A DNA stretch of 64,000 bases from Auriscalpium vulgare. Lineage: Eukaryota > Basidiomycota > Agaricomycetes > Russulales > Auriscalpiaceae. The notes beneath the pieces were generated by a model, which saw only the letters and a list, made by a program, of their open reading frames with translations, was not told the origin of the DNA and did no database searches. The translations under genes were made by a program, and so were the position numbers. Of this stretch, positions 31,182-64,000 are shown piece after piece (position 1 is the stretch's first letter; each line of letters starts with the position of its first letter). Location: the NCBI GenBank assembly GCA_019915015.1, contig JAHBBC010000018.1, forward strand, positions 248,001-312,000, written 5' to 3'.

Positions 31182-31323
31182 CGTCACTGTTACGGAATTG
31201 GTCGTTGACTGCTCTGCTTTACGTGTCCCCTCGTGCTTATCTGTGTTATTGTCGTCACTGTTACGGAATTGGTTGTTGACTGCTCTGCTTTACGTGTCCC
31301 CTCGTGCTTATCTGTGTTATTGT
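31182..31323 (+). repeat. 71-bp tandem repeat, two units, in the 5' LTR
   Basis: Units start CGTCACTGTTACGGAATTGGT at 31182 and 31253 and differ at one or two bases. They lie downstream of the TATA box, in the transcribed leader. Confidence 0.9.
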
Positions 31324-31854: not shown

Positions 31855-31872
31855 TGGAGCCCACCGCGAGGG
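31855..31872 (+). other. Candidate primer binding site
   Basis: Starts TGG four bases after the 5' LTR (TGGAGCCCACCGCGAGGG), as expected for pairing with a tRNA 3' end ending CCA. The matching tRNA was not identified. Confidence 0.5.
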
Positions 31873-31973
31873 GTTCTTCTTTCTTGGCCAGTCGTGTACC
31901 TCTGGACCTTCCACAGAATCGTCCCGACAGATCGTATCCTACGAACGAATTCTACAATCCAGGCTACACTCCC

Positions 31974-41273: not shown

Positions 41274-41946
41274 AGTCTCGGCTCATATCTATCTATTCAC
41301 CGCTAACTCTTCTCATTGTCAGTTCATTTCTGCTGCGTATCTTTCTCTCCATGCTCGTGCTCTGCCTGTTTTCCCTATGCACGCTCACTCGTTATCCAAG
41401 TTCCCCGCGTCTGGCTCGTCATCCAAGTTCCCCGCGGATGGCCAAGTAATCGTGTGCGTATCTCGCGCTTGTGCAATCACTCCAGTTCTAATCCAATCCT
41501 GGCTCGCAGATGATCTACTGGCTGTTCCTCATCCATCTCTTCCCCTCTCGACTCATTCTCTCGACGTTCCGCTGAGCCGTCGCTCGTCTCTGTACACATG
41601 CATTCCACACTTACTATCGTCATCTCTTCTCGCGTTATGTGATATGGTACCCTCGCCGCGTTCGCTCTGGCACGATGTCGTAGATCTCGCCGTTTGTTTA
41701 CCATCCACTTGGGCTGCCAGCCAAGAACAGTCTTCGGTTATGCGTTCTGCTTGTAACTCTCGCATTCACGTTTCGAATAACGATGTTTCGATTCATGCTC
41801 CATCCCGCTGTGACCGTCTCGCTCGCAACACTCTCAATGCAGCTGGTCGACTTCCAGTCTGCCTATTCATGACCCGCACTCCATCCTCATCTTCCCAGCC
41901 CGCTCTCACCGCTGCTCCGATTTTGTTACCCAACGAAGATACAAGC
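41274..41946 (+). other. Region between Gag-protease stop and first pol ATG
   Basis: The pol frame is open through this stretch, but its translation is Ser/Leu-rich and unlike a conserved domain. It holds two direct copies of ATCCAAGTTCCCCGCG (41394 and 41421). A near-identical copy lies at the edge of the 3' LTR (45219-45238). It may be a spacer, an intron or a relic junction. Confidence 0.5.
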
Positions 41947-44900: not shown

Positions 44901-45177
44901 TGCTCCAGGAGATTTGGTGCTCTTGCGGAATTCGGAGATAGAGAAGTCGCTTAACAAAAAGGCAAAACCGCGCTATCTAGGTCCATACATGGTGCATCGT
45001 CGGACGCAGGCAGGCACGTATATTCTCCAGGAACTGGATGGCGCATTCTCTCGCATCAAGGCAGGAGCTGCTCGTGTAATCCCTTACATTGCCCGAGACG
45101 TCAAAAGACTTCGACGCATGGTTGAAGCCACTCTGGAGGATTCATCTAGTTCTTCATCTAGTGATTCTAGTGACTAG
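41947..45177 (+). CDS. pol: Ty3/gypsy Pol: reverse transcriptase, RNase H, integrase
   Basis: About 1076 codons from ATG 41947; the frame is also open upstream. RT: PWVHRNIPIPPG, WFCVVKKNGKLRIVHDLQ, PMGFTNSPAEFQNCM and the catalytic FIDDV at 42808 (F in place of the usual Y). RNase H: VILSVDTSY, QPKLELYGLYRAL, VEVDAQYIKGML. Integrase: zinc-binding HEDLGH...CHECQ (44055-44170), then the DDE core with YVDVMYMP, VVTDNGPE and NGVVERGHF. A C-terminal region with KPRYLGPYMV and a Ser-rich end follows; no chromodomain is seen. It copies and integrates the element. The frame is intact, and with matching LTRs the element may be active. Confidence 0.93.
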   Translation: MDANWSDPGITEVYFALPSGDVCTAYKRVDQKVRPIPGVFPQDARVERRIPEDPLFSLPPLSPHPPEFAPTERISEDGMARLQINSEGFLLPEEVKLFKHIMVLNEQALAFADDQRGTIKDSYMTPYIIPTVPHEPWVHRNIPIPPGIKMKVLDLLREKMHAGVYEPSQSSYRSRWFCVVKKNGKLRIVHDLQPLNKVTIKDAGLPPVLDDFVEPFGGRQCSTVFDLFWGFDARKIHPKSRDLTAFQTPLGQLRITSIPMGFTNSPAEFQNCMAFILQDEIPESANIFIDDVAIRGPASQYLDATGQPEILVENPGIRRFIWEHALDVHRIMHRIKCAGGTFNPSKAQVCAPKVSILGQTCSAEGRTPDDKKVDKILTWPDLTNPTEVRGFLGLCGTVRIWIPNYSMEARPLTELTRKDEEFVWDARRKEAFERLKKLITSSPALRAIDYTSPNPVILSVDTSYIATGFILSQLDEEGRRRPARYGSLPMGDVESRYSQPKLELYGLYRALRHYALHIIGVTSFYVEVDAQYIKGMLKAPDLQPSASINRWIQGILMYDFTLVHVPGVRFKGPDGLSRKALAPNEAVVPDDDSWLDDIALYAIDGDRNFPPRSSNLVHVFPAIASNTIAVSSQDTALLEIGTFLAKSKFPSHVETPKDIQRFLAQAAQYMLRDDALFRRNGELIPLKVIFDVGQRRAILINAHEDLGHRGERAVFEMVRLRFFWPHMGADVRHHVASCHECQLRKTLKGRIPITVSTPATLWTKIYVDVMYMPKVRGYRYIVAARDDLSRVSEGRALRHADAKSLASFFWEQIYCRYGVVGRVVTDNGPEVQGAFTLLLERMGIPHVRVSPYNAQANGVVERGHFIIREAIVKACQGKIGLWPSKVPVAFFADKITISRSTGFSPYYLLHGVHPVLPFDLTEATFMVDGFRANLSSDDLLALRIRQLEKRPEDVARAARMLAKYRFTSKDKFERRFHSRIRTEAFAPGDLVLLRNSEIEKSLNKKAKPRYLGPYMVHRRTQAGTYILQELDGAFSRIKAGAARVIPYIARDVKRLRRMVEATLEDSSSSSSSDSSD

Positions 45178-45321
45178 ATGCTTGGGCACCAGCGTACCCA
45201 TCAAACGGGGACGTTTGCATTCAAGTTCCCCGCGGATGTCGCGCCGCAACATGGTTTGAAGATATTCTCTTCAAAACCAAGCGAGATCTCATCGAGATCG
45301 TATTTGACGATTGCCGACTGA

Positions 45322-46527
45322 ATGATACAACTTTGCCATGAAGTCGAGCGCCCACTCCTTTCAACTCTTTCCCCCACACTCCTTCGCTTCCAACAAATCC
45401 TTGTTCTTTCACTTTCATTCTCTATCCAGTCCCCATCATGCATTTCTCCCTTATGCCGAGTATCTGGCATGCCGTCGATCGACTCCGGGCCGCAACAACT
45501 CGCCTGGCCCAATCTACGACTGCCACCAGTATGTGCGCTTATGCGCAGATTCCCTAACGACACTGACCGTACCATCACCACGCATCTCTCAGACTATGTG
45601 GCATTGCCTGACGAAGAGTTGTTCCGTCCGAGCCAGGATATTGAGAAGGAAGAGCAGACGAATCGGCTGTATTCGCTGGCGGAATTCGTCTCTCTGGAAT
45701 CATCACCGTCTCGCCCTGCCCACCTCGTCGCACCTATCTGGAACAACGCACTTCTAGGTCGGCTCAGTCCTTTGCCGGAGTTCAAGGCTACTGGCACATT
45801 CACGTTCGCATCCCATCCGTTCCCCACTTCCTCCAGCACCTGCGTTGAGTCCCGTTCGGAGATGTTCCTTCGCCCCGAGCTCGATATTGCGCCGCCTCGC
45901 CGACGTCTATGGTGCGGAGAAGTTAGCGGTCAGGAGCAGCTCGATGAAGAACACCTTCATGTGCGGTTCTCCTACGACGGATACACGGAGTTTGGGCGCA
46001 TCATGCATTACTTCGGTCGAGATGAGCAACATGCCGTATTCGCCGCATTACTGGTACGCGCACCTCATCGTTCCCAGTACTCTCGCCCGCGCTTTGTCTT
46101 CCTCGAGGTTCCCCTGGAGCATTGCGCACCCTCGACTCTGCCCACCGATATTGTCTTCGCCCCCATCATCGAGCTCTCCGAAACCGACACCATCGAGTCC
46201 CGTCATATCATCATCGAACGTCCAGAACTCCCTGACTCGTCTAGCCCCGGTTCACTATCCAAGCCAACGCCACTCGTTGTTGACGCTCTCGTGGATCTTT
46301 TCCGCGGCCTGGAAGATCCTTACGGCGAGTTCGACAGTCCAGTCGCACGCAATGCTGCGGCGTTTGGCCTCTCGAACATGCCGGGCGGTCTCAACCTGGA
46401 CAGCGAGCTGAAGGACCACCGCATCGAGAGGACGCAGACGGAGATCGACGAGAACGGGTATGTGCTGAGTTACGACCATCAATGGCTGAAGGTGGAGAGA
46501 GGAAAGAGGGTTGAACGACGACTCTGA
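45322..46527 (+). CDS. 401-residue ORF inside the 3' LTR (U3), unknown function
   Basis: Translates identically to 29463-30668. This copy starts 145 bp after the pol stop and lies upstream of the 3' LTR TATA. It is therefore in the sense orientation at the 3' end of the full-length element RNA, the position of an accessory gene. It could be made from a spliced or internally started RNA. Function is unknown; a few retroviruses place accessory genes partly in U3, which is an analogy only. Confidence 0.65.
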   Translation: MIQLCHEVERPLLSTLSPTLLRFQQILVLSLSFSIQSPSCISPLCRVSGMPSIDSGPQQLAWPNLRLPPVCALMRRFPNDTDRTITTHLSDYVALPDEELFRPSQDIEKEEQTNRLYSLAEFVSLESSPSRPAHLVAPIWNNALLGRLSPLPEFKATGTFTFASHPFPTSSSTCVESRSEMFLRPELDIAPPRRRLWCGEVSGQEQLDEEHLHVRFSYDGYTEFGRIMHYFGRDEQHAVFAALLVRAPHRSQYSRPRFVFLEVPLEHCAPSTLPTDIVFAPIIELSETDTIESRHIIIERPELPDSSSPGSLSKPTPLVVDALVDLFRGLEDPYGEFDSPVARNAAAFGLSNMPGGLNLDSELKDHRIERTQTEIDENGYVLSYDHQWLKVERGKRVERRL

Positions 46528-46822
46528 TCAGATGGATGGTGGGTCACATGACTTGCTTCTCACTTACCCTTTTCATCCATGCTTCACAGTTTCTTACCAG
46601 CCAAGGTCACTTGCTGGTCTGTATTACTCATGCATTCCTTTTAACATGTGCTTTCTAGAGGCTGTACACCAAGTTCCTGGTGCCTGGTCATATGTGACTC
46701 CTTTTGACTCTTTGGACTTCTCTTATTCTGGCTCATTCTATTCCCCTTATTTCATGACTCCCTTATGACTCCTTCATATACTAGTACCCTAGTTAGGTAG
46801 AATATTCCCACAAGAGAAAAGG

Positions 46823-46829
46823 TATAAAT
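46823..46829 (+). promoter_or_regulatory. TATA box of the 3' LTR
   Basis: Same GGTATAAATACC as in the 5' LTR. From this copy, transcription would read out into the flanking Plavaka fragment, antisense to it. Confidence 0.6.
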
Positions 46830-47040
46830 ACCTGGCCTCTGGAGAAATTCTAGTGTCTCTTTTCCCCCCTACAAAGCTTCTTATTCTATAAGTTGCTTTT
46901 TCCTTGACTTGATTGTTGAAGGAGTGCTGCTTGCCTCCTTGACTATATCAGTCACTTGCAGACCCTTGTTGTTCCCTCCGTTCAACTCGTATTCTTGTGT
47001 TCCAATCGACGCTATTCTCACCAACGCTAGTTCTCATCGA

Positions 47041-47182
47041 CGTCACTGTTACGGAATTGGTCGTTGACTGCTCTGCTTTACGTGTCCCCTCGTGCTTATC
47101 TGTGTTATTGTCGTCACTGTTACGGAATTGGTTGTTGACTGCTCTGCTTTACGTGTCCCCTCGTGCTTATCTGTGTTATTGT
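47041..47182 (+). repeat. 71-bp tandem repeat in the 3' LTR
   Basis: Copy of the two-unit repeat at 31182-31323. Confidence 0.9.
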
Positions 47183-47709
47183 CGTATCCGTCCGTTGCGT
47201 GTGTTGACCCCGTACTCTGCGTGTGTCGAATCTGTGTTGGGAGTTCCACCGAAGTCTACTTGAAGTCCGCGTACGTTCGCATCTGTTATCCACTCCGCAT
47301 ATCCCCCCATCCCTGCTCGACTTCACCGTCTAGTGTTTTCCCCCATCGGTTCATTCTCGTTCTTCGGTCGTACTCCGTTGAACGTCCCCGTCTAGAGTAT
47401 CGTCACCCGTACTCTGTATTCTTGCATCTCCGGACAATATCAATCTACGTGCACATCCGTACACACCCTCCGCACGTCCCCGTGCATTTCGTCTTTTGGA
47501 TCTCTTCACCAGATTCCAGAACTCGACTCTTCGATCCTTCCCAGGTACTTCTTACGACATAAGTGCGGACCACCGAAGAACCATCGCACAACGAACAACT
47601 AGGTAACTCCGGGAGTTTAGAGAACCCGAGGAGCCTAGGGCAGAAGTCTTCATCGTCACTCGTGCTGCGTTCCGCACCGCGATACTTCGAACCTCTTCCC
47701 GCCGCGACA

Positions 47710-49526
47710 ACGGCAGCCGACCCGACCGTGTTCTTCTGCATCATGCGACGAAGGCCTTCCTCCCGTCGTTGAAGGCGCGTGATCTGGCGGACTGCTCGGT
47801 TCTTGTTTGTCCGCGCATAGTAGCGCTTGACCCGTCGATGCTCCAGTTCACCCTACAATTGTGTGAGCTGAACAGAACGCAATGGCGAGACATACGCATA
47901 CTTACCGGCTGCGTTGAGTACGAGTCTGAAGTCCCAAACCACATGATCTGCCGGACATAGTCGCCGAGCGCGTATAACTTGTACGTGAACAGGTTGAAGA
48001 CCTTCTTCCGAGAACTTGTTGTGTCCGAGGAGGGAAGAGATAAGGTCGATGGGCCTGCGGAGCCCTGAGCTTTCCGCTTTCGGCGGCCCCTGGCGGCTGT
48101 TTCTCGAGGCAGCTCTCGTGTGTCGAATACAGAGCAGGTAGATCGCGCAAACCGGCGTAGTTGACTGCCCAGAAAAATCGTTGACCTCCGTAGGAGCACG
48201 AGGGAGGAGTCCGTGTGCATGCGAAGCTTCGCCTCGGCATGCCATTCTGCAAGGCCGAACAAGAGATCGAGCACGACAGTGTTGTGTGGCTCGTCGAGCA
48301 AGCCTTCGAAGACCGGTATGGCACACTGTCGAATGACAAGGTCAACGTCAAAACATGCGCAAAGAGTGAGCAACGTACCTGCAAAAGATCTTCAAAATTT
48401 CGTGCTGCCAACTTCTTCATTGCTGACGCATTGTCTGAAAAACGGCGAATCGTAGCGCGACCGAATGTGGGAACCTGGCGGTACCTGATACAGCAGTAAT
48501 GAGATGGGTTTATGGATCGAGTGCATTCATAAACGCACCGCTTGTTGAGTTTTTGCACGGCGTCCCCTCCGACGGCAACGAGAATTCGAATGAGATGTGT
48601 GAAGACGGCCTTCCACACGCCAAGCTCAAACTCGTGCATAAGGTCAACGACAAGCATGAGGAAAAGGTCAAAGCCGAAGGGTGATAGTCGCTCCGAAAAG
48701 GCATTCTGCGGACAAAGGACAATTACATCAGAAGGAAGCGGAGAGACCACGGCACGGACTGTACTGACTGTTGTGGGCACATATGATTCCTCTGCTAGCA
48801 AGCGTTCCACCGGCGCGCTTTTGACGCCTTTGCCAAGCCTGTACACGGCGTCGGAAGCAGCTGTGATCTTATGTCGAAGACCTTCGTCGTCCGTGCGCGG
48901 ATGCTTCACTCGGTAGGCGTCGTCTCGAAGCATGCCTAGGTTCGGGATGTCGGCCTTCCCCATCTTACACCTGGGACATGGACAAGACCCCAGGTTCCGT
49001 ATCGTGGCAAGTAAGACTCTGTATAAGATAAGTCAATGCTAATTGCTAGATGGCGTGTGATACTCACTTCTCGGGGTAGTCGGCAGAGTAAGTAAACAGT
49101 CGAGGATAGACGCGCCGCGTGACGCCATCGGGGCATTTAATAACAATTCCATGTTGATAAGCCTCGAGGAATGCATCATCCAACATGAGTTTGAGGACGG
49201 CATGCATGAGTTCGCGGCGGCAGTGAGTGATGATGTCGTCAGGGGGAGGAAGTCCGGTCAGTGACTGGAAGAAGTCGAAGAACGAGTCCGGCAGCTGCGG
49301 CAATGTGTGAACTCGATATCAAGGTATCAAGACATGCGCCTCGTACCTTTGGAATGTAAGCAACATGGTGACAAGCACCGGATCGTGGCTGCGCCCGCGT
49401 GTACTTGGACTGGTTGCCGAAGAACAGGTACATTGGCCAGAGCGCGGCCGTCCCGAAGCTTGCCAAGTGTGTAGAGTCCGACCAGAGCATCATCGCACAC
49501 ACAGTGCGCTCGAGGGTGCAGCCCGG
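47710..49526 (-). pseudogene. Plavaka-like transposase, middle part, cut on both sides
   Basis: Seven exons can be read (49526-49347, 49294-49068, 49018-48769, 48705-48539, 48484-48379, 48325-47906, 47852-47710) with 46-63-nt introns. Characteristic pieces are MMLWSDSTHLASFG then PMYLFFGNQSKYTR, a CPCPRC zinc pair, FDLFLMLVVDLMHEFELG, and the basic RRKRKAQG region. The lower end is cut by the 18.3-kb element and resumes at 29377. The upper end is cut at 49527 by the second LTR element, and the N-terminus should lie beyond 64000. Coding exons show no stops, so the transposase was probably young when hit. Confidence 0.82.
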
Positions 49527-50183
49527 TGATACGCTATCACCCGGGACGGACCCTAGCGGGGCGTGCGGCGAGTGCCTCACAGGACAACAACCACCAACAC
49601 TGCCTCCTATACGTCGCGATCCAGTCCGGGTGACTAGTCTTGCCGAGGGGGGAAGGTGTTCGTGTCGCTGTCGCGCTTCGTGCCCTCCCCGCGGTCGTGC
49701 GGGGCCACCTCCTACCGCCTAAACACCAAACTAAACACTCACCTGCCTGGGGATGCCCTCTACGGGATCCTCCTCCGAGTGCTTCGCACCCGTGTGCGAA
49801 GCGTCCGCCTATGGGCCGTCGCACCCCCTCTTGCCTGTCCGCCTGCCTACCTGTTCCCACATCGGTGGGGTCCTTCCTTCCTAAGTCTGGTAGCGCCTCA
49901 GGCTACAGTTTCTGTGAGGTAAAGGGTGTGGGTGGCTTGCGCCGCCCACAGGTTGATTGGGTTGCTACGTCTCGCGCAGCTCCCTAAGTAGTGGCTCTAC
50001 CTACGTCGCTAAGCCCTCCCGATCTAGCCCGTTCCGGTGATCCGTTCCGTCGCCAGTCCCGGTTGCTCCTGGGTCGCCGGACCACGTTCCCATCACCCCC
50101 GCTCCCGCGACCCTGCGCCTCGCATGCTGCTTCCCCGTCTCGCGACGTCTCGCTACACGCTTGCCCGCGGCCTGAACCTATCA
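49527..50183 (-). repeat. 3' LTR of the second element (single copy visible)
   Basis: Defined by TGATAGG at the polypurine side and GCGTATCA at the outer end. Length is 657 bp. It includes a GGGTGG/CCGCCC hairpin near 49935. Boundaries are inferred from end sequence alone. Confidence 0.6.
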
Positions 50184-50197
50184 TTTCTCCCCCCAAC
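50184..50197 (-). other. Polypurine tract next to the 3' LTR
   Basis: Minus strand reads TTGGGGGGAGAAA directly before the LTR start TGATAGG, the standard position for plus-strand priming. Confidence 0.65.
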
Positions 50198-50244
50198 TGA
50201 AACTGCAACTGTCCCCAGTTGCCAGGAACCGTGCGGAAGCGGCA

Positions 50245-50249
50245 TATAA
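50245..50249 (+). promoter_or_regulatory. TATA box of the first cassette gene
   Basis: GGCATATAAGGG lies 66 bp before the ATG at 50311 and about 50 bp inside the polypurine tract, pointing away from the LTR. Confidence 0.55.
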
Positions 50250-50310
50250 GGGCTCGCGACCTTTCGCGATACGTCGCTTGTAGCATCCCTTTGCCGATTT
50301 CTGTCCCGCG

Positions 50311-51559
50311 ATGTCCCTCCCCGCAGCGTCTGCCACCGCCGACAACCTCGACCTCCTCCGCCTGCTGACGCAGGCCCCCTTCGCTGGTTTTGACCTTGGG
50401 GATGCCGAACGGGAGGTTGCGCTACGTCTAGGGTGGGCCGACAAAGTCAACCAGCTCGTGGTGCGTGCTGGTCCCCGACCGCGTCTTTTCCCGGCTTGGC
50501 TGATGATGAACTCAATTCCAGACCCTTTCTTCAATCCGCGCGTCCCGCAGCCTGCGCGATCTTGCCTTCCACTTCACCTCGCCGATCCTCGAGTTCATGG
50601 TGAAGCTCGTTCCAGCGTCCGCCCCTCTCGCCCAGCGCTTCGAGGGCACCCTCATGCGTACCCTCCCCGACTCAGCGCGCGCCAGCCCGCGGTGGTCCCA
50701 GATGTTCTCCCCTTTCCCTGCCGACGCTACCGACGCGGAACTCCACGTCTTGATCACCATCGTGGAGGCTGGGCTCTGGACCGTGTACTACTTCGGAGAC
50801 GGTTCTGTCGAATCCTACCTCCATGAAATCACGGAGTTGCATGGCGCCTTCCCCACCCTGCGTCCTCAGGGGATGCAGAGCTGGCTCCTACGTGATTTCG
50901 ACGCCCGGGCCGTCCATGGGATGTTTGTTATTACCCGCGAAGACGCCGTGTGCCGCGCCCTGGCCTACCACGTCCGTGGTGCCTCCAGCTCCCCCCACTC
51001 TCGTGCCTACGCGGGCCGCCTCACCACGGGCGTGGTGTACTACCTATTGGGGGGCCTCGCGGAGGACTCGGTGGATATGTTACGGGACTTTACCACCATT
51101 TCCGAGGCCTTCGACACGTTTCGCGATATTTGGGCGGACTGGCCACTGGTGTTGGATCGCCTCGACATGCGCTGGGCCGCGATGGCAACCTGTATGGGCG
51201 GGATGCTGGACGAATGGGGATTAGGGTCCCGTCTCCTGGCCAACCTCCAGCCCGCAGACTTCCTGGTCCAGGATATCAGCGTGGCCTCGATTCGCGCCAT
51301 CGAGCAGATCAGTTCTGCGCGCCTCTCGCACATCTCCTCCTCCCAAGCCATAGCTGAGATACCCCTAGGCTTCGATGCCATAGTCCATCCCTCGGACCAG
51401 CCGGGCCCTCTTCCCTTCCCCGCGCACCCCACGGTACCAGCGCCGACGGCCCCCTCCGCGTCTCCTACCTACGCCGGGGAGATACCGCCGCCCATCGCCA
51501 GCTCGGAAGAAGTCGAGGAGGGGGAGGTGATCGAGCTTCTGATGGAGCGCGAGGAATAG
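50311..51559 (+). CDS. Antisense cassette gene A, unknown function
   Basis: Two exons (50311-50460 and 50522-51559) join in phase 0 over a 61-nt intron (GTGCGT to CAG) and give about 395 residues. The protein is mostly helical and soluble (LLRLLTQAPFAGFDL, then SPILEFMVKLVPASAPLAQRF, GVVYYLLGGLAEDSVDMLRDF), with a Pro-rich then acidic C-terminus (EEVEEGEVIELLMEREE). No domain is recognised. It lies antisense to the element's own genes, has its own TATA box, and shares a layout with gene B: a first exon of about 50 codons, a phase-0 intron and a helical body. That hints at common origin or matched roles. Confidence 0.7.
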
Positions 51560-51832
51560 GTATATTCCCGGGCCAATGTCTGTAGAATGTTCCATAGCTA
51601 TTGAAATGGAACCAGGAGCCATGTGCGGCTTCCCCCTGTCCCTGTGCCACGTTTCGCGATGCCTTGCGATAAGCTCCTGGGCCCATGCCGGAGGCTCCGT
51701 CTGGGTCGCGATCTGTCGCGATAACCCACGTTGGCCGAAACTCCGGCGAGACCCTCGTGTTTTGGTCTTCGCGCTGTATCGCGACGCCGCGATGGTGTGC
51801 CTCTTTCCCTACTCGCGCCGCCTATATGAGGG

Positions 51833-51838
51833 GGCTGC
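51833..51838 (+). promoter_or_regulatory. TATA-like box of cassette gene B
   Basis: CCTATATGAG about 65 bp before the ATG at 51899, the same spacing as for gene A. The 51560-51832 stretch before it shows several TCGCGA-type motifs and no ORF. Confidence 0.45.
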
Positions 51839-51898
51839 GACGATGGCCTTTTCCAAAAACACCCTCAACGCCCCAGTCCGTCCGACTACCTCCTCCAC

Positions 51899-53080
51899 AT
51901 GCAGGCCGTCCTACTCCGCGCGTTTTCGCGTTTCCGGCTGTACCAGCTGTTGATACATCCGGTTGAGGTGCCCTTGCCTGGTGCCGACGCTTCCTCATTT
52001 CCCGCGGCCGCCGTTGCCTGGCTTCAGGAGATCTCCGACCTATTGGTGCGTCGTCCCGCGGCCCTCTTTTCCCTCATCCCGGCCTCGTACTGACGTTGTC
52101 TTCGCTTCTTCCCCCCTTTTCAGCAGGACCATCGCGAGACGTCGCATTTTACCCTACCGGCCCTCGCGTCCATGACCGTCGTCTCGACGCTCTCCTACCT
52201 AGCGGAGCGCTTTCCCGAAACGTTCGAACAAACCGCCCCCATTCGCGCGAATATCGTAGGAAATATTCCGTTCGGAGGGGACAACGCCCCGGGGCAGCCA
52301 CCCAGCGTCGCTCTGCTTCCTCACGTGGTCCATGTGGACTCCTTGGCCCACCTGGTGGAGCGCTCCGTTTGGTTGCTGTACCGTCACCAACTTCACGGCC
52401 GGGCAACTTTCGAGGTCAACTTGGCAGCGCTGTTCGGCCCCGAGTTTGCCCCCCGTCCCGACGGCCTTGCCACCCGTGTTGCCGAGTTATTCCTTCGCGA
52501 CCTCGATCGTTTGAGTGACGACCTCGACCACGCCGACGGGCTGGTTGGGGCCCTCATGCTCCCCTTGAACCGCGCCGTGATCGGAATGACCCACCCCCGC
52601 GACATTGGCGTCCTCGACTTCCTTGCGGCCGCGAGTCCCTCGTTGCAGGCTGCCCATCGTGCGAACGTCCGTGAAGCCGCCGACTATCTCGTTCCCGGCC
52701 TCAAGTTGGTCGCGGAGCTTCGCGACTTCGTTTGGGCGGACCAATTGAACGCCAGCCACCTGCGCCACGCCGTCACTCGCCTCGAAGGCACCGCGGGAAA
52801 GCTGCTGTACGATGCCTGCGAAGTTGCCGCGGTCCTCGACCACCTCGCCGGTGCCGGTCCTATGCGCCGTATGCTTACCGCCCTTCCCTTCCCGCCGCTT
52901 ACTCACCGAGTCATCCGCCGCGGCTCTATCGCGTTCTCGTGGGGGGTCCCCAACCTTGTTGAGGTCGTGGGCCCGAGGCCTCCTGATGCCCTGAGTCGAC
53001 GGGCTGGTCGTAGGAATGGGGGTAACCGCGCCCGGACTCCCGCGCCCAATGGTGCGTCCGGGTCCGGTGCGCCCGCGTAG
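51899..53080 (+). CDS. Antisense cassette gene B, unknown function
   Basis: Exon 1 (51899-52045, 49 codons) and exon 2 (52124-53080) join in phase 0 over a 78-nt intron (GTGCGT to CAG; the acceptor could shift three bases). About 367 residues: a helical N-terminus (VLLRAFSRFRLYQLLIHPV), then ALASMTVVSTLSYLAERFPETF, a long helical body, and a basic Arg/Gly/Pro C-terminus (RRAGRRNGGNRARTPAPNG) that could bind nucleic acid. No family is recognised. The intron length, first-exon size and TATA spacing parallel gene A. It is not broken by stops, although the host element's pol is. Confidence 0.7.
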
Positions 53081-53359
53081 CGAGCGATTCCTGTAATTTG
53101 CCCAAGGCGCCCTTAGGGCCCAGTAATGCCATTCCGTTCCCTATCCCTTCTTCTTGACTCGCGCGCGAACGCTCGCTAAGCCGTGTGAAGGTAAGCGCCG
53201 CACCTGTCGCGGCCCGGCGGGCCCGCTCTGCTTCCACGTCGGAAGCAAAAACCCACACGCTGGCGCGGCGCCCCGTCTTAACGCGACGCGTTGCGCCTCG
53301 ACCTCTCCGTCTCTCTCTTTCCTCCCCTCACCTCTCCCTATCTCCCCCCTTCCCTGGCC

Positions 53360-55060
53360 ATGTCTGCGTTCTCCCGCCCCATCAACCTCAGGAAACGGCT
53401 GTCCGCCGTAGAAGCGCTCGTCGCCTCCCTCCCCACAGTCGACTCCGCCCACTACGGCGAGTTCGCCGCGAACTGGGAGTCGGCCACGGTGAGTGCCCAC
53501 GGCCTCTCGCTCCCGACGCTCTGCTGACCCTCCCTTGTGTCCAGTCCGCTTATGCTGAGGTGTTGGGGGAGGACCCCCCGCCGTCCGAGGTGCTGGACAG
53601 GATCGGGGCCGTGTCCGCCGTTGTCGACGCCTGGCCGTCCTCCGGCCCCTCCCCCACGCCGTCCTCACCCGCCATCCCCTACTCCACTCCCGTCGCCGCT
53701 CCCCTCTCCCGTCAGGCTGGCAAGCGGGCCCGCGCCGACAGTGCCCTCCCCGCGCCTTCTGTCCGCCCCCCGGTCTCCTCCACGCCTCACCGCGCCGCCG
53801 CCCGCGCTTCCCCGCCGCCCACCAAGCGCAACCGCGAGTCCGCCCCCTCCGAGGCTGACGCCGAGGCCGAGGTCGACGAGCTAGATGAGGCGGGGGACCC
53901 GCAGGAGCCCGTCGCGCAGCGCACCCGCGGCGCCACCAAACTCCCCGCCCCCCGATCAGTCCCCGCCGCCGCCAAGTCGAAGGGCAAGGGCAAAGCCGTC
54001 CGCAGTTCCAAGCGCCCTGCCAACGTCCCCTCCGGCTCCCTCGTGCCTCCGCCCGCCGCCACTGTCCCCTCTTCCGAGGCCGGCTCCCCCGCGCCCGCCG
54101 CCGACCCTTCCACCTCCGTCAAGGGCGCCAAGATCCCCGTCGCTGACACCTTCCCGGGCCGCCGCCTTCGGGTACGTCGCCCTTTTCTTGTCCGTCGTGT
54201 TGCGCCGCTCACACTCCGACCCTCAGGCTTCCGCCCCCTGCTACCGCTGCGCCACGATGGACTCCCACCCCACGTGCTTCTTCACGGACGTCAGCGGCCG
54301 CCAGTGCCATCGCTGCTTCGTGGGCCACCACAAGTGCGACGACGGTGTCCGCGGGACGCACTTCTACGTGGTGGGCAGCAACGGAGTCTCGCAGGATGTC
54401 GACCCTGCCGGCATCCATGTCCGTCCCCGGTCCTCCGCCTTCGACTGGGCCGACCACCCCGACCCTGCCGGCGCCGTCCCCATCCTCCGCTACGACTCCC
54501 CGCCGCAGCTTTTCCGGACCTACAACGCGCTCACGGAGGAGCTCAACAGCATCAGCGTCAACTACGCGACGCTCGACGCCCGGGCCCGCGGCATCGTCGC
54601 TGAGCGGAACTGGGTCTGGCGGACCCTGCAGCAGCTCGGCGACCCCGCGTTCCCTGCGCCTGCCGGGGGCCACATCTCGCCGCAGGTTGGCCCCTTCGAT
54701 CCGCCGCGCCGCCTCCCTCTCCCTGCTCCCCCCGCGTCGCGCGCCGCTTCTCCCGCGCCGGCCAGGCCTGCCTCGCGCCTCCTCCTTGCGCCACCCTCGT
54801 CGGCTCTCATCGCCTCTTCCCTCCCGCTGCCCGGCGCCGCCGTCGTGCCTCTCGTCGGTCGCGCCTCTCGCCTTCCTTCCCCCGCGCCTCCGGTTGCTCC
54901 CGCTGCGCCCTTCTCGCCGCTCGCCGCTGCCGCTCCTCCCGCGTCGGACCCTGCCCCCGGCCCTACCATGCCTACCGCCGCCGCTCCCTCCTTCGAGGAT
55001 GTCGGCACGCCGCCCTCCGCCGCGGCTGATGGTCCCGCTGACCCCGCGCCCGCCGCTTAG
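53360..55060 (+). CDS. Antisense cassette gene C, Cys-rich (Zn2Cys6-like spacing)
   Basis: Three exons (53360-53488, 53545-54171, 54227-55060) joined in phase 0 over 56- and 55-nt introns give about 529 residues. Exon 1 is helical (RKRLSAVEALVASLP). Exon 2 is Pro/Ser/Ala-rich with basic stretches (KSKGKGKAVRSSKRP) that look like nuclear signals. Exon 3 starts with six cysteines spaced C-x2-C-x8-C-x9-C-x2-C-x6-C, close to the fungal Zn2Cys6 binuclear cluster, though without the usual basic residues between. HFYVVGSNGVSQDVDPAG and a helical stretch (YNALTEELNSISVNYATL) follow, then a long Pro/Ala tail. A DNA- or RNA-binding regulator is possible. Long antisense frames over the GC-rich tail are shadows. 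Confidence 0.65.
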
Positions 55061-55534
55061 CCGCTTGCGAGCCTTCTTCAAAAGGAGTCGCCCCTGCTTC
55101 AACAGCAGAGGGCCTTGGTGCTTCGATGCGGGGGGCGTTCCTCGTGTCCTAGGTGGGGGTTTCGGCGTCTCGCTGTCGTGTTGTCCGCTCGTTATCGGTC
55201 TGTTCATAGTTGTTCGCTATCCGTCGCTACCTCTTTGCTGTGTACATAGAATTCGCTATCCTGCTATGTTGTGAATAGAGTCCATTGCTTGTGTCACAGT
55301 GTGAGCGTGTCCTATCGCGTTTCCGGCGCGACCTCAGCCTTGTTCCAGACCCTTGAAGCCTTAGTCGGTGCCTGCCCAGTCCGAGCTTCGCTAGCGCTCG
55401 CGACCTCGACTTATCGTCCTGACTCGTCTCCATCCGTACTTCCAGCTGTTCAGTCCTAAATACCACCGTCTAATCCTCCCCCCAACTGAAATATCGACTG
55501 TCCTCAGTCGCCGTAGTGCTGGGCGGTACTCTTT
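55061..55534. other. Spacer between cassette gene C and pol stop
   Basis: Convergent 3' flanks of gene C and pol. It contains the second polypurine-like tract (55474-55487) and a TTGTGAATAGAG stretch. No gene is seen. Confidence 0.5.
55474..55487 (-). other. Second polypurine-like tract, just after pol
   Basis: Minus strand reads CAGTTGGGGGGAGGA 50 bp past the pol stop. About 35 bp here align with the tract at the LTR (CCCCCCAACTGAAA...ACTGTCC.CAGT.GCC on plus) at roughly 80 percent by eye. It is not followed by a TG LTR start. Confidence 0.5.
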
Positions 55535-58500
55535 TTAGACGGTGATCTCGTCGTCCTGGTCATCGTCTTCCCTGGTGGGGTCGTCTGCCTCCTCTTCATG
55601 AATGGCATCGTGATCCTGCCTATCTTCATGAAGTAGCTCGTCCACCCTGGACTGTGGGACGTCCAGAAATTCGGGCAACTCTGGCAGCGCAATGTTCGTT
55701 CGCGCGAAGTAAGGCAGGACGCGAAACTCCGCGACCGGTCGGTCGAAGAGCGCACCGTGGAGGTCCGCAAGCACGTAAGGTCCTCCTTTTCGTCGGCCAA
55801 TTACCACGAACGGTCCATCGTAGCGCGGAAGCATTTTTCGATCTAATGACTTCTCGTACCGCGTGAACCGTAGGAGGACCAAGTCGCCTCTCTTGAAATT
55901 GTAGTCGCGAATCGTCGCTTCGTGGTCACGTTCAAATTTTACCGCCGCGATACGTCGCGCTTCAAAGACTTTGTCGTGGATGGTCCTTAACTGGGCTTTT
56001 CTCTTTTGTAGGGCCATTGCCCTGCGCGCTATGAGGTCTGTGGAAGACAGTAGAGACTCGGGCGGAGGCATCAAGTATGAAGCCTCGATGATATCCAGCG
56101 GCATTAGCGGCTGCGTTCCTGTTACCGCGAAGTATGGCGAGCAGCCCATCCTCCGCCTGATCGTTATCCTGTCCGACCAGAATACCGAGTACGCAACCGA
56201 TGACCATTTTGCAGCATTTCCATCGGCTGCCTTGTAGAGCGCTTGACGTACGTCGAAGTGAGACCGCTCGACTATTCCGTTGGCTCGCGAATTATATCCC
56301 GATATTCGAATGTGCCGGACTCCATACTTATGCGACAGGGATTCCAAGGCCGACACGAACGGTGCGCCGTTGTCCGTGACCACTTCTCGCAGGGCGCCCC
56401 ACCGGCACAAGACGTCTTCGAAAATCCATTTCGCGATGGCGTCCGCCGTCTCCGCCCTTAGCATTCTCCACTCTGGATAGTGGGTTACGGAGCAGCGTCC
56501 TTGGACGATGTATTTGAATCCGCCGCTTGCTGGCATATGCATGGTGTCTGCATACATCTTTGCGAAAAGGTTCGCCGGCGTTGCCACCGTTGGCGGTATC
56601 AGGCTGTGGCGAACTAGTCGGGTTTCGCAAATATGGCACGTTCTCACCCACCAGGCCACGTCTGCGTCCACGTATGGCCACCAGAAACGCTCCAACAGCA
56701 TCATCCGCGTCGCGTAGACGCCTTTGTGTCCGACATCGTCATGAGCTGCTTTGAGGACCGCGATACGTCGGTCTCCTCCCAGCACGAGTTGGTGCCTGCC
56801 TTGGTGGTGCCTTTTGAAAAGGCGGTCCCCATCCTTGAAGAACTGGAGCGCGTATCGAGCGAAACGAGCGAACTGTTCGTCGGTCAAGTCCGCCGGCCGC
56901 GCCAGGGTCCCTAACCAGTCCCTGACTAGTTCCAGCCGCTTGTCAGCTTCATGAGCCTTGTCTGATCTGGGAACATCGCGATACGTCGCGTCCTGTACTG
57001 GTGCGGGTTGCATTTGGACCGTAGTTGCCCAGACGTCGGCCGGTTCATCGTGGGAGCGCCGGGCCTCCTCGCGACGTATCGCGTCCTGGCTTGAACCAGC
57101 CCCATGTTCGTCTGGTATGCTTCCTGGCCCCGTCCATCCATCTTGCCGTCGCGAGGCTCTCTCTTGCGCTGTCTTCGGGACTACCATGTTTACGATATGT
57201 GCGAAACCATACACCGCATCAACCCAGTCGTCGAAGTCGTCTTCCTGTTCCAGAGCGTCTCCTGGTTGCCTACGCCTCCTGGATAGGCCGTCGGGCCCGT
57301 GGAAGAGTCCCGGCACGTGCACTAGCTCAAAATGGAACATCAGGATGCCTATAATCCACCTGTTCATACTGGCCGATGGCTCGAGGTCAGGATTTTCCAG
57401 CATGCCTTTGATATACCTGGCGTCGACCTCAATGGTCAGGTTCCTCACCCCTATCAGGTAGACTTTAAGGGCCCGCAGGGCTCGAAAAAGACCATAGAGC
57501 TCCAGCTTGGGCTGCGAGAACCGCGCTTCGCGATCGTTTAGCGCGATGCTACCAAATCGAGAATATCGGCGTCTCTTCCTGTCTTGGGGAACGTTGGGGT
57601 CCGCCTGACTCAATAGGAAACCCACCGCGATGTACGAGGTGTCTACCGCTAGGATCACGGGGGCCTCCGACGTGTAATCAATCGGTAGGAGCGCTGGTGA
57701 TGCGAGGACTGCCTCCTTGAGGTCCTCCATAGCTCGCGACTGTTCGGGTCCCCATTCGAACGGGACGTCCTTCCTCGTCAGGTGTGTCAAGGCATGGGCT
57801 CGGTGCGCAAAGTTACGGATAAAGATGCGCAGGACTCCGACAGTCCCCAAGAAAGCCCGTACGTCTGAGAGATCCGTGCACGGCCCCCAATTGCGAATCT
57901 TCGCGACCTTTTCTTCGTCTGCCATCCTTCCTTGCGGTGTGCAGCGGTGCCCTACCACGTAGAATTCTGGTACGCACAGCTGTGATTTCCATCCTGAGAA
58001 CGTGCCATGACAGTAGCGCATTCGTTGGACTACCCTGTTAACGTTGTTAAAGTGTTCCCATACGAACCGCCTTATGCCGTTGTTGCCGGGGATCGTTTCG
58101 TATCCTCCGCCTTCCGTCCTGTAGTCCGAGTCCGGCCCCTTCAGGGGGACGTCGTCTATAAAAGGCACCGTAATATGCGGGATTTCCGGTTGGAGAATAA
58201 AGGTCACGTCGTCGTGGAAGATCGGGACGGAATTCGTCCACCCCATAGGCAGGGTCACCAGCCGTTTTGCGCCGTACGGCGTCTGGAAAGTCGTGAGGTC
58301 CCTTGAGGCTTCATCTAGTCTCCTTTCGTCATAGCCCACGTAGAGGTCCAGAATTCCCCCGCACGGCCGCCCCGCAAACTGCTCCGCCAAATGATCTGGG
58401 AAGGGGGGTACTCCTGAGTGCGCGATGGTCACCGCATTCAGGGGTTCCAGACTATGGACTATACGGAGGCTGGTCCCGTCCTTCTTAACCACACAGAACC

Positions 58501-58667
58501 ACCTAGAGCGGTACGACGAGTTTGAGTCCTCGTAGACTCCCGCGGCGATCTTGGTCTTGATGAGCGCCATGACCTTGTCGTATATCCCTGGCGGAATCGG
58601 AATATTTCGCTGAACCCACGGCCGATGCGGAACTACTGGTATTGTGACGGGGGGGAAGAAGTCTTTA
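55535..58667 (-). pseudogene. pol: Pol of the second element, main part, 5' end cut off
   Basis: About 1040 codons without a stop, from KDFFPPVTIP at 58667 to the end at 55535. RT motifs: PWVQRNIPIPPG, WFCVVKKDG, PMGWTNSVPIF and FIDDV (58151-58162). RNase H: VILAVDTSY, QPKLELYGLFRAL, IEVDARYIKGML. Integrase: HDDVGHKG...CHICETR, MYADTMHMP, VVTDNGAPF and NGIVERSHF, then a C-terminal KMLPRYDGPF region. It is close in motif detail to the pol at 41947-45177. The remaining 5' part lies at 61777-62425, separated by a 3.1-kb insertion, so full-length Pol cannot be made from this copy. Confidence 0.9.
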
Positions 58668-58670
58668 CGA

Positions 58671-61600
58671 TTACTCTTAATCGTTTTTTTCTCCAACCAG
58701 TCAGGCCAAAAAGTGCCCGTCAGGAAAGTCGCTTTAGGAAATGGTCTCACACGGTCAAGTCGCGTCGTTCCACCTGCCAAATTCAGTAATTCTTAGCTAA
58801 GCAGCTTCTGCCCAATGCTTTTCCACATCCTCGCTCCAAAAGACACTCGTGTCTGCGAGTATTTTGCGTTTTGCAAGCTAACTAACACTGATATGCTCAT
58901 GATTCAAATTGTTCTGTGATCAGAAAAAGAGGCCTTAGAGTTTCCATTTTTGGTAGAAAGTTCCCACGGTTGATGCAGAGAAAGATGACGTAGTTTTAGA
59001 GGGCATTCCACCAATTGATCCGGTTTGCTACGTCATTTTTCTCTACTCCGGCTATTACAATACCCGGGCCTAATATTTTTACTATTAAAAATGCGCACAT
59101 AGAGGGAATTGAACCCACAGCATGCAGTTTATGAGTTACGTAACATAGTCTAAGAGCAGTAACCACTAGACTAGAAGGCTATAGTCATTGAACAGCTGTG
59201 GATAGTCTGTATCAACGTTCTATCCCCTCTTACCCTACAATACACTTTGCTCTTTTTATCAAATTCTTGCCTTTTCCCTGATACAATATACACATATTAT
59301 ATATTGTCAGAAAGCTACAATAAATGCACACACAATGGTTAGGGTACTGGAGTCTGCAGGACTTGTGATGTATTAGCCAGTGCATATTTCCCTGTGTGTA
59401 GACCAAGATCTACCAAGTGCATTCACGCTGATGATATTCCTCGTTCCGCTGATGGACACCACCAGGTAGGGCAGTAAACAGCAGAGTCGACCAGATCCCT
59501 AGAGCGCTACCGAGGTGTTGATGTGTGTGCGAGCGAGCGTCAGGAGTCCCGGAGTAAGCAACGACCATCTCCGATCAAACCTATGGTGTTCCGATTGAGG
59601 GCGCGACAGTGACAAGACGAGCGACGCCGGAAGACTGCAACGCGACTGCAATCGATGACTCGGGCAAAGGCAACAAGGATGGAACAAGATGGGAGCGATG
59701 AGACAGGAAGTGAGAACAAAGGCTAAGACGATGGCTGAGGCTAAGGCGCCAGAGCAGTCAACCGGTGTTGACCGCTATATGATACGAAGGCGACAAGAGT
59801 GCACAAATGAAATGTGCTGGGAGCGATGAGGGGGGAACGTAACTTGCATTGCACAGAGTATCCGACAACTATTTATATATTGTGACAAATACAGTGCGTG
59901 TCCAATCAAGTAAGTACAGAGACATCAGAAAGACAAAGGGAAAGATAGCAGCATCATATCAAATGGTACGGACAATGCGGGGGAGTCATGCGACAGTCAG
60001 ACAACGAGGAACGAGGCAGGGGACGATGTCGAGCGAGTGATCTGCACTGTCAAAGGACAAAGGAAACAGCACGGGAAATGATCCGCTCTGTTGTTGACTG
60101 TGGGAAACAGCCTCGGGGAGCATGGGAACAGACAAGGCATGCCATATTGAGCATGATAGCGGTGGTCCGATAATGGTGACACAAGGCTGCGTCTTCCGAT
60201 CGTGAATGTTCGGGAGGCAATGCTTCCAACATGTGGAGTGGCTGGGTTGCGAGTCAATCGCAAGGCGCTCATGAATATGAGATGGTAGCATGTGTCGATA
60301 GATGCTAGGATGTGTTGGAGGGGAGCGGGCATGTCGGGAGCGCTGAGTCAGAGGGTGTTGGAGCGGTCGGGACAGTGGTGCGGACAATGGGCAACTGGGG
60401 CAGTACTCGGATGGTGTGGGAGCACCAGCACTGTGTAGCGCCGGGCGTGGCTGTTGTGCGACCAGGCTGTGCAAGTCTAATGCAAATCTGATGCGCCGTG
60501 ACAGGCATGGGAAATGTTGTGCTGGCTAGCGTATGGCGACTGGGCATGCGGTCGGGTGCTTAGTGCGAGTAGCATGGGAGTCGGCAGAGTGTTCTAATTG
60601 TGGCACGGGAAGGCCTAGGTAATGTGACCAAGGACTTGGTTGAAACTGCAAAAAGATAGTTAAGAATTCCTCTCAGCGCGCGGGACGAGGCTTGTCACCT
60701 CGCTGCGAGGCAATCATTTTCCAATGTTCACACTTTTGACAAGCCGACAGTCACGCAATTCCGGAGGTCAGAAAGTTGCGCAGACAAGCTCCAACCACCC
60801 AATTAGTCTCTCAACGCTCGCAAGATTGGAGCCAGAGTTGTGACCGTTGGAGTCTCGCAGGGCATTCACGCAATAGGAATCATACCTTGGACACCACACT
60901 CAGACCATCGACTCAGTTGCATGCCCCACACACAGTCATCCAACCACTCGCACATTGTTTTGACTGCGACCACATGACCTTGAGCACAGACTGCTGTCAC
61001 ATCTTGGCAGGATTTCATATGACATTTTGATCATCGAGATTGTTGTTAGAACATGTGCGCCACACTACTCCGATAACTCTGTGACTGCCAAGTACCTCCA
61101 CAGTCACGCCTATCCTCCAACCATAGTACAACTCAGCTCTCGAGCTCATGCTGCATTTCTCTGATCCCAATTGTTCTGTGATTGTGCCAGTGCTCTAATT
61201 ATTGCTCCACCACTCCAACCATTGCACACACCATTCCAGTGCATTCCTCTGAAAAATTGCAGTGTCACAACATCGCAGCAGTTGCCTACAACTCCCTCCT
61301 ATATCAGAGTGCATTCTATTGCTCGCCACATCTCCATTGTCTTCTATTCCGTTCATATTGTCTTGTTCCACATTGTAGGACACCTCTTCCACACTTCTTG
61401 ACAGCACTGACCATTCCCCATGCGCTTGCACTGCCCCTCACTTGTCTCTTTCACTTGCTCACACACATTACAATATCCCCTTTAGTGCTGTACTAGGGAT
61501 CTGGTTTTGGACACATGTGACATTACCACCCTACTACATGTGGGTGCCCATCACCACAACTTTGCCCTGACATCTCAATACAGTCACAGAGTCACTTTCC

Positions 61601-61773
61601 TGCATGCGGAGCCAGAGCCATTAACCCCAAGTATTATATCTCCAACATATTCAAAAAGGACATAACTACACCAGGCAGTCAGTTGTATGTTGGATGGCCA
61701 AGCCCCCCTCCCCCCTAAATGATTAAGAGTAATTGTACTGCCATGCGTGCATTGGCCCATTAACCCCAAGTCT
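58671..61773. mobile_element. 3.1-kb non-coding insertion inside pol, class unknown
   Basis: The pol frame breaks after a CGA (61774-61776) and resumes next to another CGA (58668-58670). Removing one CGA plus the insert restores a normal pol sequence, so CGA is a likely 3-bp target duplication. A 13-bp inverted repeat (ATTACTCTTAATC) sits at 58670-58682 and 61721-61733, but the outermost 40 bp on the right do not pair. CATTAACCCCAAG occurs twice near the right end. The interior has no ORF above about 100 codons, is less GC-rich than its surroundings, and contains a tRNA-like sequence. It could be a non-autonomous DNA element or a composite. Confidence 0.6.
59095..59187 (-). repeat. tRNA-like sequence (SINE head or tRNA pseudogene)
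   Basis: On the minus strand a polymerase III A-box-like TAGTCTAGTGGTTA is followed about 55 nt later by a B-box GGTTCAATTCC. A CTCATAA stretch could be an anticodon loop reading CAT. T-stem pairing is nearly complete, but the acceptor stem is poor. No CCA-ready end was seen. Confidence 0.4.
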
Positions 61774-61776
61774 CGA

Positions 61777-62425
61777 AAGCGCCCCCGCTCCGAGTCGTCC
61801 CAGGCAAATGCCTCGTTTTGTGCGCACATAAACGCATGCATGAGCTTCCTTTCTTCCGGCCATAGGAAATCTCCGTCGTGGACTCGGTCAAATTGTTCGC
61901 GACGTTCCGCGGTGTACCTTCCCGTGGGTACGAAGTCCGGTGGCTTCTCTGGGAGCGGCGGCATATCCGCCAGGGGGTCCCCTCTGATCTCTCTGAGGAT
62001 CCGGAAGTGCTCCGGCAGGTCCGTACGAATGGGCTTTACCTTGAGGTGTGCTGGCTTGTAACGCTTCTTCGTGGCCGCAAAGACTTCGCGCTGCATCGCG
62101 GTCGGCTGTAGCTCACCTCTGTCCGTTTCCTCCTCTCTTTCTCTCCCACTCTCGCCGTCTCCCCAGTCTGCCGCCGTCCAAATAAACGTCCCTGCTCTTG
62201 CTCGTTCCTCCTCTTCCTCTCCTTCTTCCGCTCGCTTCGCGAACACTCCCGCGTATTCCTCCGGTAGGTCGCACACTGACAAATAAGCTGACTGCACATC
62301 TTCGATTGTAGGCGAGGATTCGAGGTACACCAGGGATTCCATTCTAAGAGTATCAGGCTTATCGGGCTCGAACCCCACGACCAGCCCTACCTCCTCCTGG
62401 TCCTCCAACAAATCCTCTAGTCGCG
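61777..62425 (-). pseudogene. Pol 5' fragment of the second element
   Basis: Frame entered by -1 shift from Gag-protease (first residues FSRLEDLLEDQEE). It encodes the linker before RT: LVVGFEPDKPDTLRMESL, an acidic stretch, then FLWPEERKLMHAFM and NEAFAWDDSERGRF, where the 3.1-kb insert starts. The equivalent part of the 18.3-kb element has LLPEEVKLFKHIMV and EQALAFADDQRG at the same place, which supports the join. Confidence 0.8.
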
Positions 62426-64000
62426 AAAACCCTCCACCCCCTGCTTCTGGGTTCGCGAGATGCGCTTGCGGCCGCGTGGAATAGTGGGGATTGACGCCAT
62501 GACTCCCGTGTTTGGGTCCGTGATCGTGATTGTCTGCCTCTCGTCTGCAAAGTTTTGCACGGTACTTCCCGTGAGAACGTCAAAGGGCCTCCCCAGGAGC
62601 ATGTCGTACGCCGGGTTGCGGATGATATGCACCTGTACGTATAGCGTTATACCCCCAATCTTCATCGGGACGTTTCTAGCCAGGCCTAGCGACCTATCGC
62701 GACTTTTGTTGGCCGATATCATATCCAGGCGAACGTTCGGATCGTAATGCAGCCCGAGGTAATGGCATACGTCCTCGGACATGGAAATAATCTGCGACCC
62801 GGGATCCACGACTGCCTCGATGTGCGCTTGGTTGTCGACTAGTGGCAAGATCGAACGGAGGGCCAGCGATTCCTTGGCGACTTCCAACGGCTCAGGGTCT
62901 GGTTCCCCTTCTCCTGCTTCTCCTAGATCTCCCATCAGAACCTCCACAATGACTTCTCCTACACGCGTCCCCTCGGGCAACTCCGTTGGCTGGTGTCCCA
63001 GGGCTTGCAGAAAGGTTTCGGGCATATGGTCCGCGAATCCCCTCACCACCTTCTCGTCCTCTCCTTCCCCTTCGTCCTGGTCAAAGTCGAACGGAAAGAG
63101 CTCTGGTTCGCTTTCCACCATCGCCTGGACTACTGGTACTCTTGCCTCGTTTGGGACCCGCTTAGGGGTCACCACGTTGCGAACTTGAGCGCGTACTTCC
63201 GGGGCAATGGACATGAGCTCCCTCTGTGTCAAGGTGACCTCCGCATTCATGGCCCTCTCATAAACCTTACTTGCTATTACGGGGTCGCGGACCGGGGCGA
63301 CCTTATTGTATGCTGGGTCCGCCTTGCGCTGCCCCGCGCTTCGTTGGTAACTTGCCGGCCCTATGTACGTCGCGTCGGGCACCTTCGCGAAAGGGTGGAT
63401 CGGAGGTGTTAACGGCTCCTCACCCGCTGTGGTGTCTTCGTCGGCCTGCCTTGGTTTGTCTGCGCTATCCCCAGTCTCCCCTGGTCGGTCGACGGCCTCC
63501 GGCTCGAAGGAAACCTGCTTCTTGGCTTGCGTAAACGGCTTCCTCTTCGGAATGACCACCTCTGGAACTCGTCGCGATCTTTCGCGCTCGCCAGGCAGCA
63601 GCCCTATTGCCTGGGGAAACTCGCCCGCGTCCAGTGCGGCCTGCCGGCGTTCCTTCTGAGCTTGCCTTTCCGCTCGGGCCGTCAGGAGCACTGCCATCTC
63701 CTGCTGGAGCTCCGTCATTCTGTCTTCGTCGGTCAATTGCGGCGTCAGTTGGATTAGGCCGGCGACCGTCTGCACTTTGGCCGGCACTGGCTCGTAGTCC
63801 ATCGTCGTCAGCATCATGGCTTCTGACTGTCCGTGTTGATTCCCGGCGTAGTACGCATCCACACGCTGCTTCAGCGGGCCTTCTCCTAGCGGGATAAGCC
63901 CTCCACCCTTCAGAACGACCCGGTTGTTGTGGTCCCTAGATACGCGACCCGTCGCGATGTAGTCCTGGACCACCATACATTCCCTGACGAAGTGCCCCGT
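62417..64000 (-). CDS. Gag-protease of the second element, N-terminus outside window
   Basis: At the window edge the translation reads TGHFVREC, the last His and Cys of a CCHC zinc knuckle, so the Gag capsid lies beyond 64000. About 380 residues of charged linker follow. Then comes a retropepsin-like domain (AVVDPGSQIISM near 62800, DPGS in place of DTGS, and MLLGRPF near 62600). The frame ends at TAG 62417-62419, a few codons after a slippery heptamer that leads into pol. DPGS-type active sites are unusual; activity is uncertain. Confidence 0.85.
   Translation of the reverse strand, partial: TGHFVRECMVVQDYIATGRVSRDHNNRVVLKGGGLIPLGEGPLKQRVDAYYAGNQHGQSEAMMLTTMDYEPVPAKVQTVAGLIQLTPQLTDEDRMTELQQEMAVLLTARAERQAQKERRQAALDAGEFPQAIGLLPGERERSRRVPEVVIPKRKPFTQAKKQVSFEPEAVDRPGETGDSADKPRQADEDTTAGEEPLTPPIHPFAKVPDATYIGPASYQRSAGQRKADPAYNKVAPVRDPVIASKVYERAMNAEVTLTQRELMSIAPEVRAQVRNVVTPKRVPNEARVPVVQAMVESEPELFPFDFDQDEGEGEDEKVVRGFADHMPETFLQALGHQPTELPEGTRVGEVIVEVLMGDLGEAGEGEPDPEPLEVAKESLALRSILPLVDNQAHIEAVVDPGSQIISMSEDVCHYLGLHYDPNVRLDMISANKSRDRSLGLARNVPMKIGGITLYVQVHIIRNPAYDMLLGRPFDVLTGSTVQNFADERQTITITDPNTGVMASIPTIPRGRKRISRTQKQGVEGFRD
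62426..62432 (-). promoter_or_regulatory. -1 ribosomal frameshift site between Gag-protease and Pol
   Basis: Minus strand reads G GGT TTT in the Gag-protease frame, the canonical X XXY YYZ pattern. Slippage by -1 enters TCG CGA CTA GAG and continues in the pol frame. The zero-frame stop is two codons downstream. Confidence 0.7.

Follow-up and report, generated by a model that had tools for sequence, protein, structure and literature searches.

A 64,000-bp stretch of the Auriscalpium vulgare genome (the window, C18:248001-312000 within a 51.6-Mb genome) contains, at 49527-55535, the 3' portion of a Ty3/gypsy element on the minus strand. A long terminal repeat (LTR) and a polypurine tract (PPT) are followed by three plus-strand genes, termed A, B, and C, and then by pol:

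49527..50183, minus strand: 3' LTR, 657 bp, TG...CA ends; copies about 99.5% alike on C18
50184..50194, minus strand: PPT adjoining the LTR; opens a conserved motif with a 6-bp dyad that extends to about 50221
50311-50460 and 50522-51559, plus strand: exons of gene A, 395 aa; first junction the same in annotated protein P0001
51899-52045 and 52124-53080, plus strand: exons of gene B, 367 aa; paralogue of A by profile comparison
53360-53488, 53545-54171, and 54227-55060, plus strand: exons of gene C, 529 aa; six-cysteine cluster from 54239, basic runs
55476..55510, minus strand: the PPT/dyad motif again, in the gap separating C from pol
55535..58665, minus strand: C-terminal part of pol; domains read on the neighbouring copy (copy 2)
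58666..61770, no strand assigned: insertion of a 3.1-kb multi-copy repeat that splits pol in the window copy
61771..64000, minus strand: remaining, N-terminal portion of pol plus some of gag/protease, which runs on to the 5' LTR at window-equivalent 65531

The element and its neighbour

The original prediction, made from the window alone, described a minus-strand element with an LTR, a PPT and a pol end at 55535, and three plus-strand genes with good introns that were intact beside a broken pol. All of this was borne out. The frames of A, B, and C read through via GT-AG introns at 50461-50521 (A), 52046-52123 (B), and 53489-53544 and 54172-54226 (C), with splice sites chosen by hand. The window copy owes its broken pol to the later 3.1-kb repeat, for which we found 13 full-length genomic matches at 98-100% (its own site counted); in the next copy pol is open. 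Relatives of this repeat at 76-79% identity also occur elsewhere in the genome.

The 5' LTR, expected beyond position 64000, lies just past the window end at C18:313531-314187 (window-equivalent 65531-66187). The window element belongs to a tandem pair on C18, two elements with one common LTR (LTRs at 297527-298183, 313531-314187, and 326429-327085), and its LTR is about 99.5% identical to those at C18:313531 and C18:326429. This arrangement ruled out that A, B, and C lie inside a 6-kb LTR. The flanks compared were the outer ones of the array; they differ, as expected of a recombined array, and show no target-site duplication. A genome search with the LTR gave 40 scored matches at 99-100% (40 of 160 candidates scored). 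Copy 2, the uninterrupted neighbour of 13,555 bp, is at least 99.5% identical to the window copy over the stretches compared, the repeat in pol apart. Its pol is open over 1312 aa and overlaps the gag frame; the gag-protease open reading frame (ORF) of the window copy has 1026 aa.

We assigned the window family to Ty3/gypsy on the basis of near-identical TG...CA LTRs on both sides and of a gag with protease followed by a pol in which RNase H precedes integrase. Asp_protease_2, RNase H (574-708), and Integrase_H2C2 (903-952) scored above the Pfam cut-offs, and zf-CCHC (17.9 vs 20.8 bits), rve (18.2 vs 32.6 bits), and the reverse transcriptase model RVT_1 (14.5 bits, cut-off 29.6) below them.

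A, B, and C travel with pol

Genome-wide counts support the claim that the three genes travel with pol. Linkage in the window family was scored on 50 of 116 A matches, 47 of 50 B matches, 49 of 77 C matches, and 35 scored pol copies of 667 candidates, with fragments, a deletion subfamily, and distant relatives excluded. A was followed by B at 46 of the 50 A matches and B by C at 42 of the 47 B matches, and C stood at the cassette side of pol in 28 of the 35 pol copies, 477-699 bp away, the cassette being convergent with pol. Spacing between exon matches was tight: mostly 563-568 bp from A to B, 806-808 bp from B to C (38/42), and 477-480 bp from C to pol (23/28). Among the seven pol copies without C, four had no cassette-facing pol end, one had a damaged C match (43%), one (on C88) was unread, and one was cassette-free.

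An apparent A-C fusion ORF was rejected, being in L061, the one copy read, an internal deletion that leaves C out of frame. At this place (C38:148901-150800) a stretch of A at 97% identity runs out of frame into the last part of C at 81%, and matches of A with a C tail resembling it occur at several other genomic places.

Two sister families carry a diverged cassette

Weak A matches at 25-32% led to two further Ty3/gypsy families, fam2 and fam3 (the window family being fam1), in which A, B, and C, in the same order, again lie antisense to gag-pol. In fam3, models of protease, RNase H, and integrase recognize gag and pol. The pol proteins of fam2 and fam3 share 78% identity with each other and 68-69% with window-family pol, gag is 47% identical between fam1 and fam3 over 893 aa, and between families A retains 21-27% and B 17-20% identity; the cassette thus evolves much faster than pol. 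In all six A and B genes of the three families the first exon comprises 49-50 codons and a phase-0 intron of 51-78 bp follows (at hand-picked splice sites).

The sister families were counted on 48 A matches (9 fam2, 39 fam3), 51 B matches, and 37 scored pol matches (35 fam3, 2 fam2) of 631 candidates. A was followed by B at 9/9 A matches in fam2 and 32/39 in fam3, and pol had a convergent B within 5 kb in 32/37 and A within 8 kb in 28/37. In fam2 and fam3 the PPT motif, together with a fam2 repeat edge about 0.9 kb before A, suggests that the cassette adjoins the 3' LTR as well. For fam3, the sequence of C comes from a third copy, L062.

A helicase element as a second carrier was ruled out, since the repeated stretch does not include the helicase and the carrier proved to be a further gypsy family. 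Helicase-like ORFs, recognized by eye in the translation, stand beside the fam2 insertion at L053:3160-4908, and tandem repeats of about 100-120 bp (L054:1-574) lie beside the fam3 cassette whose B is altered downstream. A lone A-like match of 29% at C19:162604-163224, within a 423-aa open frame, was excluded from the sister-family A matches and possibly represents a fourth family.

Sequence features and constraint of the cassette proteins

Neither A, B, nor C matched any Pfam model at E up to 1, and their main exons matched no NCBIfam model. The only database relatives of A were two annotated proteins of Auriscalpium vulgare (Russulales), P0001, with 88% identity over 43% of A, and the fam3-like P0002; both have the first exon junction of A and further on depart from our hand-built models. 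Searching solved structures with the A and B profiles gave one weak match each (E 0.12 and 0.64).

Profile comparison by hhalign identifies A and B as paralogues (98.7%, E 1.6e-16 over 278 columns, with three sequences per profile), as does the best pairwise match (E 4e-12), and the duplication probably preceded the split of the families. In all three families C contains a six-cysteine cluster, C-x2-C-x8-10-C-x-F-x7-C-x2-C-x6-C; a looser version of this pattern occurs once in the six frames of the window. The original prediction noted Zn2Cys6-like cysteine spacing and basic tracts. The cluster and the basic runs are real, but the likeness to Zn2Cys6 regulators, whose consensus is CX2CX6CX5-12CX2CX6-8C, does not hold: the spacing of C (CX2CX8-10CX9CX2CX6C) departs from it, and the Zn_clus model gave no match.

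We compared variants among copies of the window family in two sets, 19 copies chosen by A (set 1) and 15 chosen by B (set 2, from which L034, L041, L049, and L050 of 19 copies were dropped because of broken collinearity). Both sets consist of best-scoring copies, which favours intact ones, and the counts are variant alleles rather than independent events. Since choosing by A identity biases set 1 for A, B was judged there. It had 3 nonsynonymous and 10 synonymous variants against an expected ratio of 2.28 (p 8e-4), and is thus clearly constrained, under purifying selection. The counts biased by the choice of copies were 2:12 for A in set 1 and 0:12 for B in set 2.

A repeated motif beside the LTR and within the cassette

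The motif that begins with the PPT, CTCCCCCCAACTGA, has 225 exact genomic places, and its reversed control none. It lay within 6.5 kb of an A match in 89 of the 100 places listed; this count used A matches from C1-C11 (and one from C14, without effect), and the other 11 places were not near such a match. Among the places listed, 41 same-strand pairs were spaced by 5281-5292 bp (14), 1646-1679 bp (15), 1792 bp (8), or other distances (4). In the window family, one copy forms the PPT next to the LTR and the other sits between C and pol; in fam2 and fam3 this second copy precedes B.

In five of seven genes checked the motif stands 122-160 bp before the ATG, and in four of seven a TATA-like hexamer lies within 170 bp. 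TATA boxes had been predicted for two of the window genes, and such hexamers are indeed present 66 bp before the ATG of A and 76 bp before that of B, with none before C; the hexamer list was drawn up after seeing the sequence, and at 45-90 bp such a hexamer occurs in 0.8% of cassette pieces (n = 513) and in 1.7% of window pieces (n = 1726). In the six sequences compared, the 6-bp dyad after the motif had 97.2% of cells paired, a value reached by 7/500 shuffles; two pairs were changed on both sides (26/500 shuffles), and further pair types were not unusual (178/500). The motif may serve as a second plus-strand start or as an antisense promoter element.

A probable inherited antisense cassette

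We consider it likely that this Ty3/gypsy element owns an inherited antisense cassette of three intron-bearing accessory regulatory genes between pol and the 3' LTR. The presence of the strongly diverged trio in two sister families argues for an inherited accessory toolkit, not accidental cargo. Gene structure and the annotated P0001 and P0002 suggest that A, B, and C are transcribed antisense from promoters of their own and then spliced. Their introns would survive retrotransposition, the genomic RNA being read from the other strand, on which the splice signals are silent; introns of antisense genes would thus stay in the genomic RNA, and intron-bearing genes could be stably carried in this orientation. 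Antisense-intron retrotransposition reporters use the same logic. A and B, as related helical proteins, and C, as a basic protein with a cysteine cluster, most likely act in the nucleus, where they would regulate the element or counter its silencing, a role like that of the accessory proteins of retroviruses. The cysteines and basic runs of C point to a nuclear, DNA-binding role, and the helical nature of A and B is a low-confidence prediction. Only tentatively do we extend this to a complete antisense regulatory unit, all spliced, made of a duplicated helical pair and a DNA-binding six-cysteine protein, in which the PPT motif would be both plus-strand primer and upstream element of the antisense promoter and the proteins would evolve fast against host silencing.

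Several observations weigh against an inherited regulatory cassette. In set 2 neither A (7:7, ratio 0.40, p 0.08) nor C (13:10, ratio 0.56, p 0.12) deviated significantly, so that the variant test gives a trend and no proof of constraint on these two, whose frames do persist across families. C of fam1 and fam2 showed no significant likeness outside the cysteine cluster (best BLAST E 0.006, in a basic stretch), and because of this their homology rests on position and the cluster. Protein searches with A and part of C gave Auriscalpium vulgare proteins or nothing (0 of 1501 candidates matched C residues 236-400; B was not searched). The structure models of A are poor: two modelled A proteins were all-helical with a disordered tail at a pLDDT of about 52 (low confidence), and the structural neighbours of one poor A model were generic helical bundles, with no capsid-like or other specific family prominent. 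The first two fam3 copies read were damaged: L059 lacks the greater part of B together with the start of C, and L054 has an altered B. The regulatory role itself leans on analogy and on the composition of C. Finally, in L060 (C18:977612) pol is open and the LTR meets pol directly at the PPT motif, and the cassette may therefore be dispensable in cis; a deletion running from one motif copy to the other would give such a junction.

This cassette-free copy, the ordinary-looking fungal introns and TATA-like boxes, and the non-significant tests for A and C are what one would expect if host genes had been taken up once and were hitch-hiking with no role for the element. Copies running from pol straight to PPT and LTR, with A-C found as ordinary host genes, had been named as evidence against the cassette; one such copy exists, 28 of the 35 scored copies carry C, and no ordinary host-gene version turned up, though unlinked match places were not individually read. 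With diverged cassettes in three families and purifying selection on B, we regard captured cargo as quite improbable. The convergence of cassette and pol would also suit a model in which antisense transcription itself matters, not the proteins, convergent RNAs forming double-stranded RNA that limits the element; antisense-promoter and double-stranded RNA ideas have been proposed for plant elements in the part of PMC7264820 consulted. This is unlikely given the synonymous excess in B, and given that families at 17-27% A/B identity retain both the frames and the intron position. Least probable, and in our view very unlikely, is a structural or envelope-like nature of A and B, with their antisense placement a matter of chance, a reading that the all-helical A models with their disordered tail would fit.

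Relation to known elements

Antisense genes in LTR elements are known. The plant Ty3/gypsy lineage Retand resembles the window element in its long region between pol and 3' LTR (2,933-6,566 bp) and in its antisense ORFs, which occur in every cluster and number 104, so that some elements have more than one (PMC11963269). It differs in host, in the TRP28 domain (PF04195) typical there, and in introns, which are present in A/B/C and not mentioned in the main text of that paper. At E up to 1, Pfam gave no TRP28 match in A, B, or C. Grande of maize (gene23), RIRE2, and PvRetro13 likewise have an antisense ORF between pol and 3' LTR, with its own promoter and a nuclear product in Grande; these are plant elements, and the consulted part of PMC7264820 mentions neither an A/B-like gene pair nor a six-cysteine protein.

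The original prediction could not place a three-gene antisense cassette in a fungal element. None of the papers listed by searches of the open-access literature, which leaves most subscription papers outside, described such a cassette, and the consulted parts of PMC3411680 and PMC3185511 added nothing on antisense cassettes in fungal elements. An antisense ORF as such does have a fungal precedent: Boty of Botrytis/Sclerotinia, an LTR element, has an extra one between pol and 3' LTR, though it is an ascomycete element for which that part of PMC7264820 mentions no multi-gene, intron-bearing cassette. The intron-bearing three-gene fungal form thus appears new within the literature searched. According to PMC7264820, it is unknown where the antisense genes of LTR elements come from and what they do. 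Both questions become testable in a multi-copy fungal system that offers young copies, three diverged families, open frames, and one naturally cassette-free copy, and the cassette suggests how intron-bearing genes persist inside an RNA-replicating element.

A second element in the window

Another very young Ty3/gypsy element occupies 29375-47711, with 2.48-kb LTRs at 99.96% identity, one ORF of 3189 aa that matches a protease, and a pol ORF of 1510 aa.
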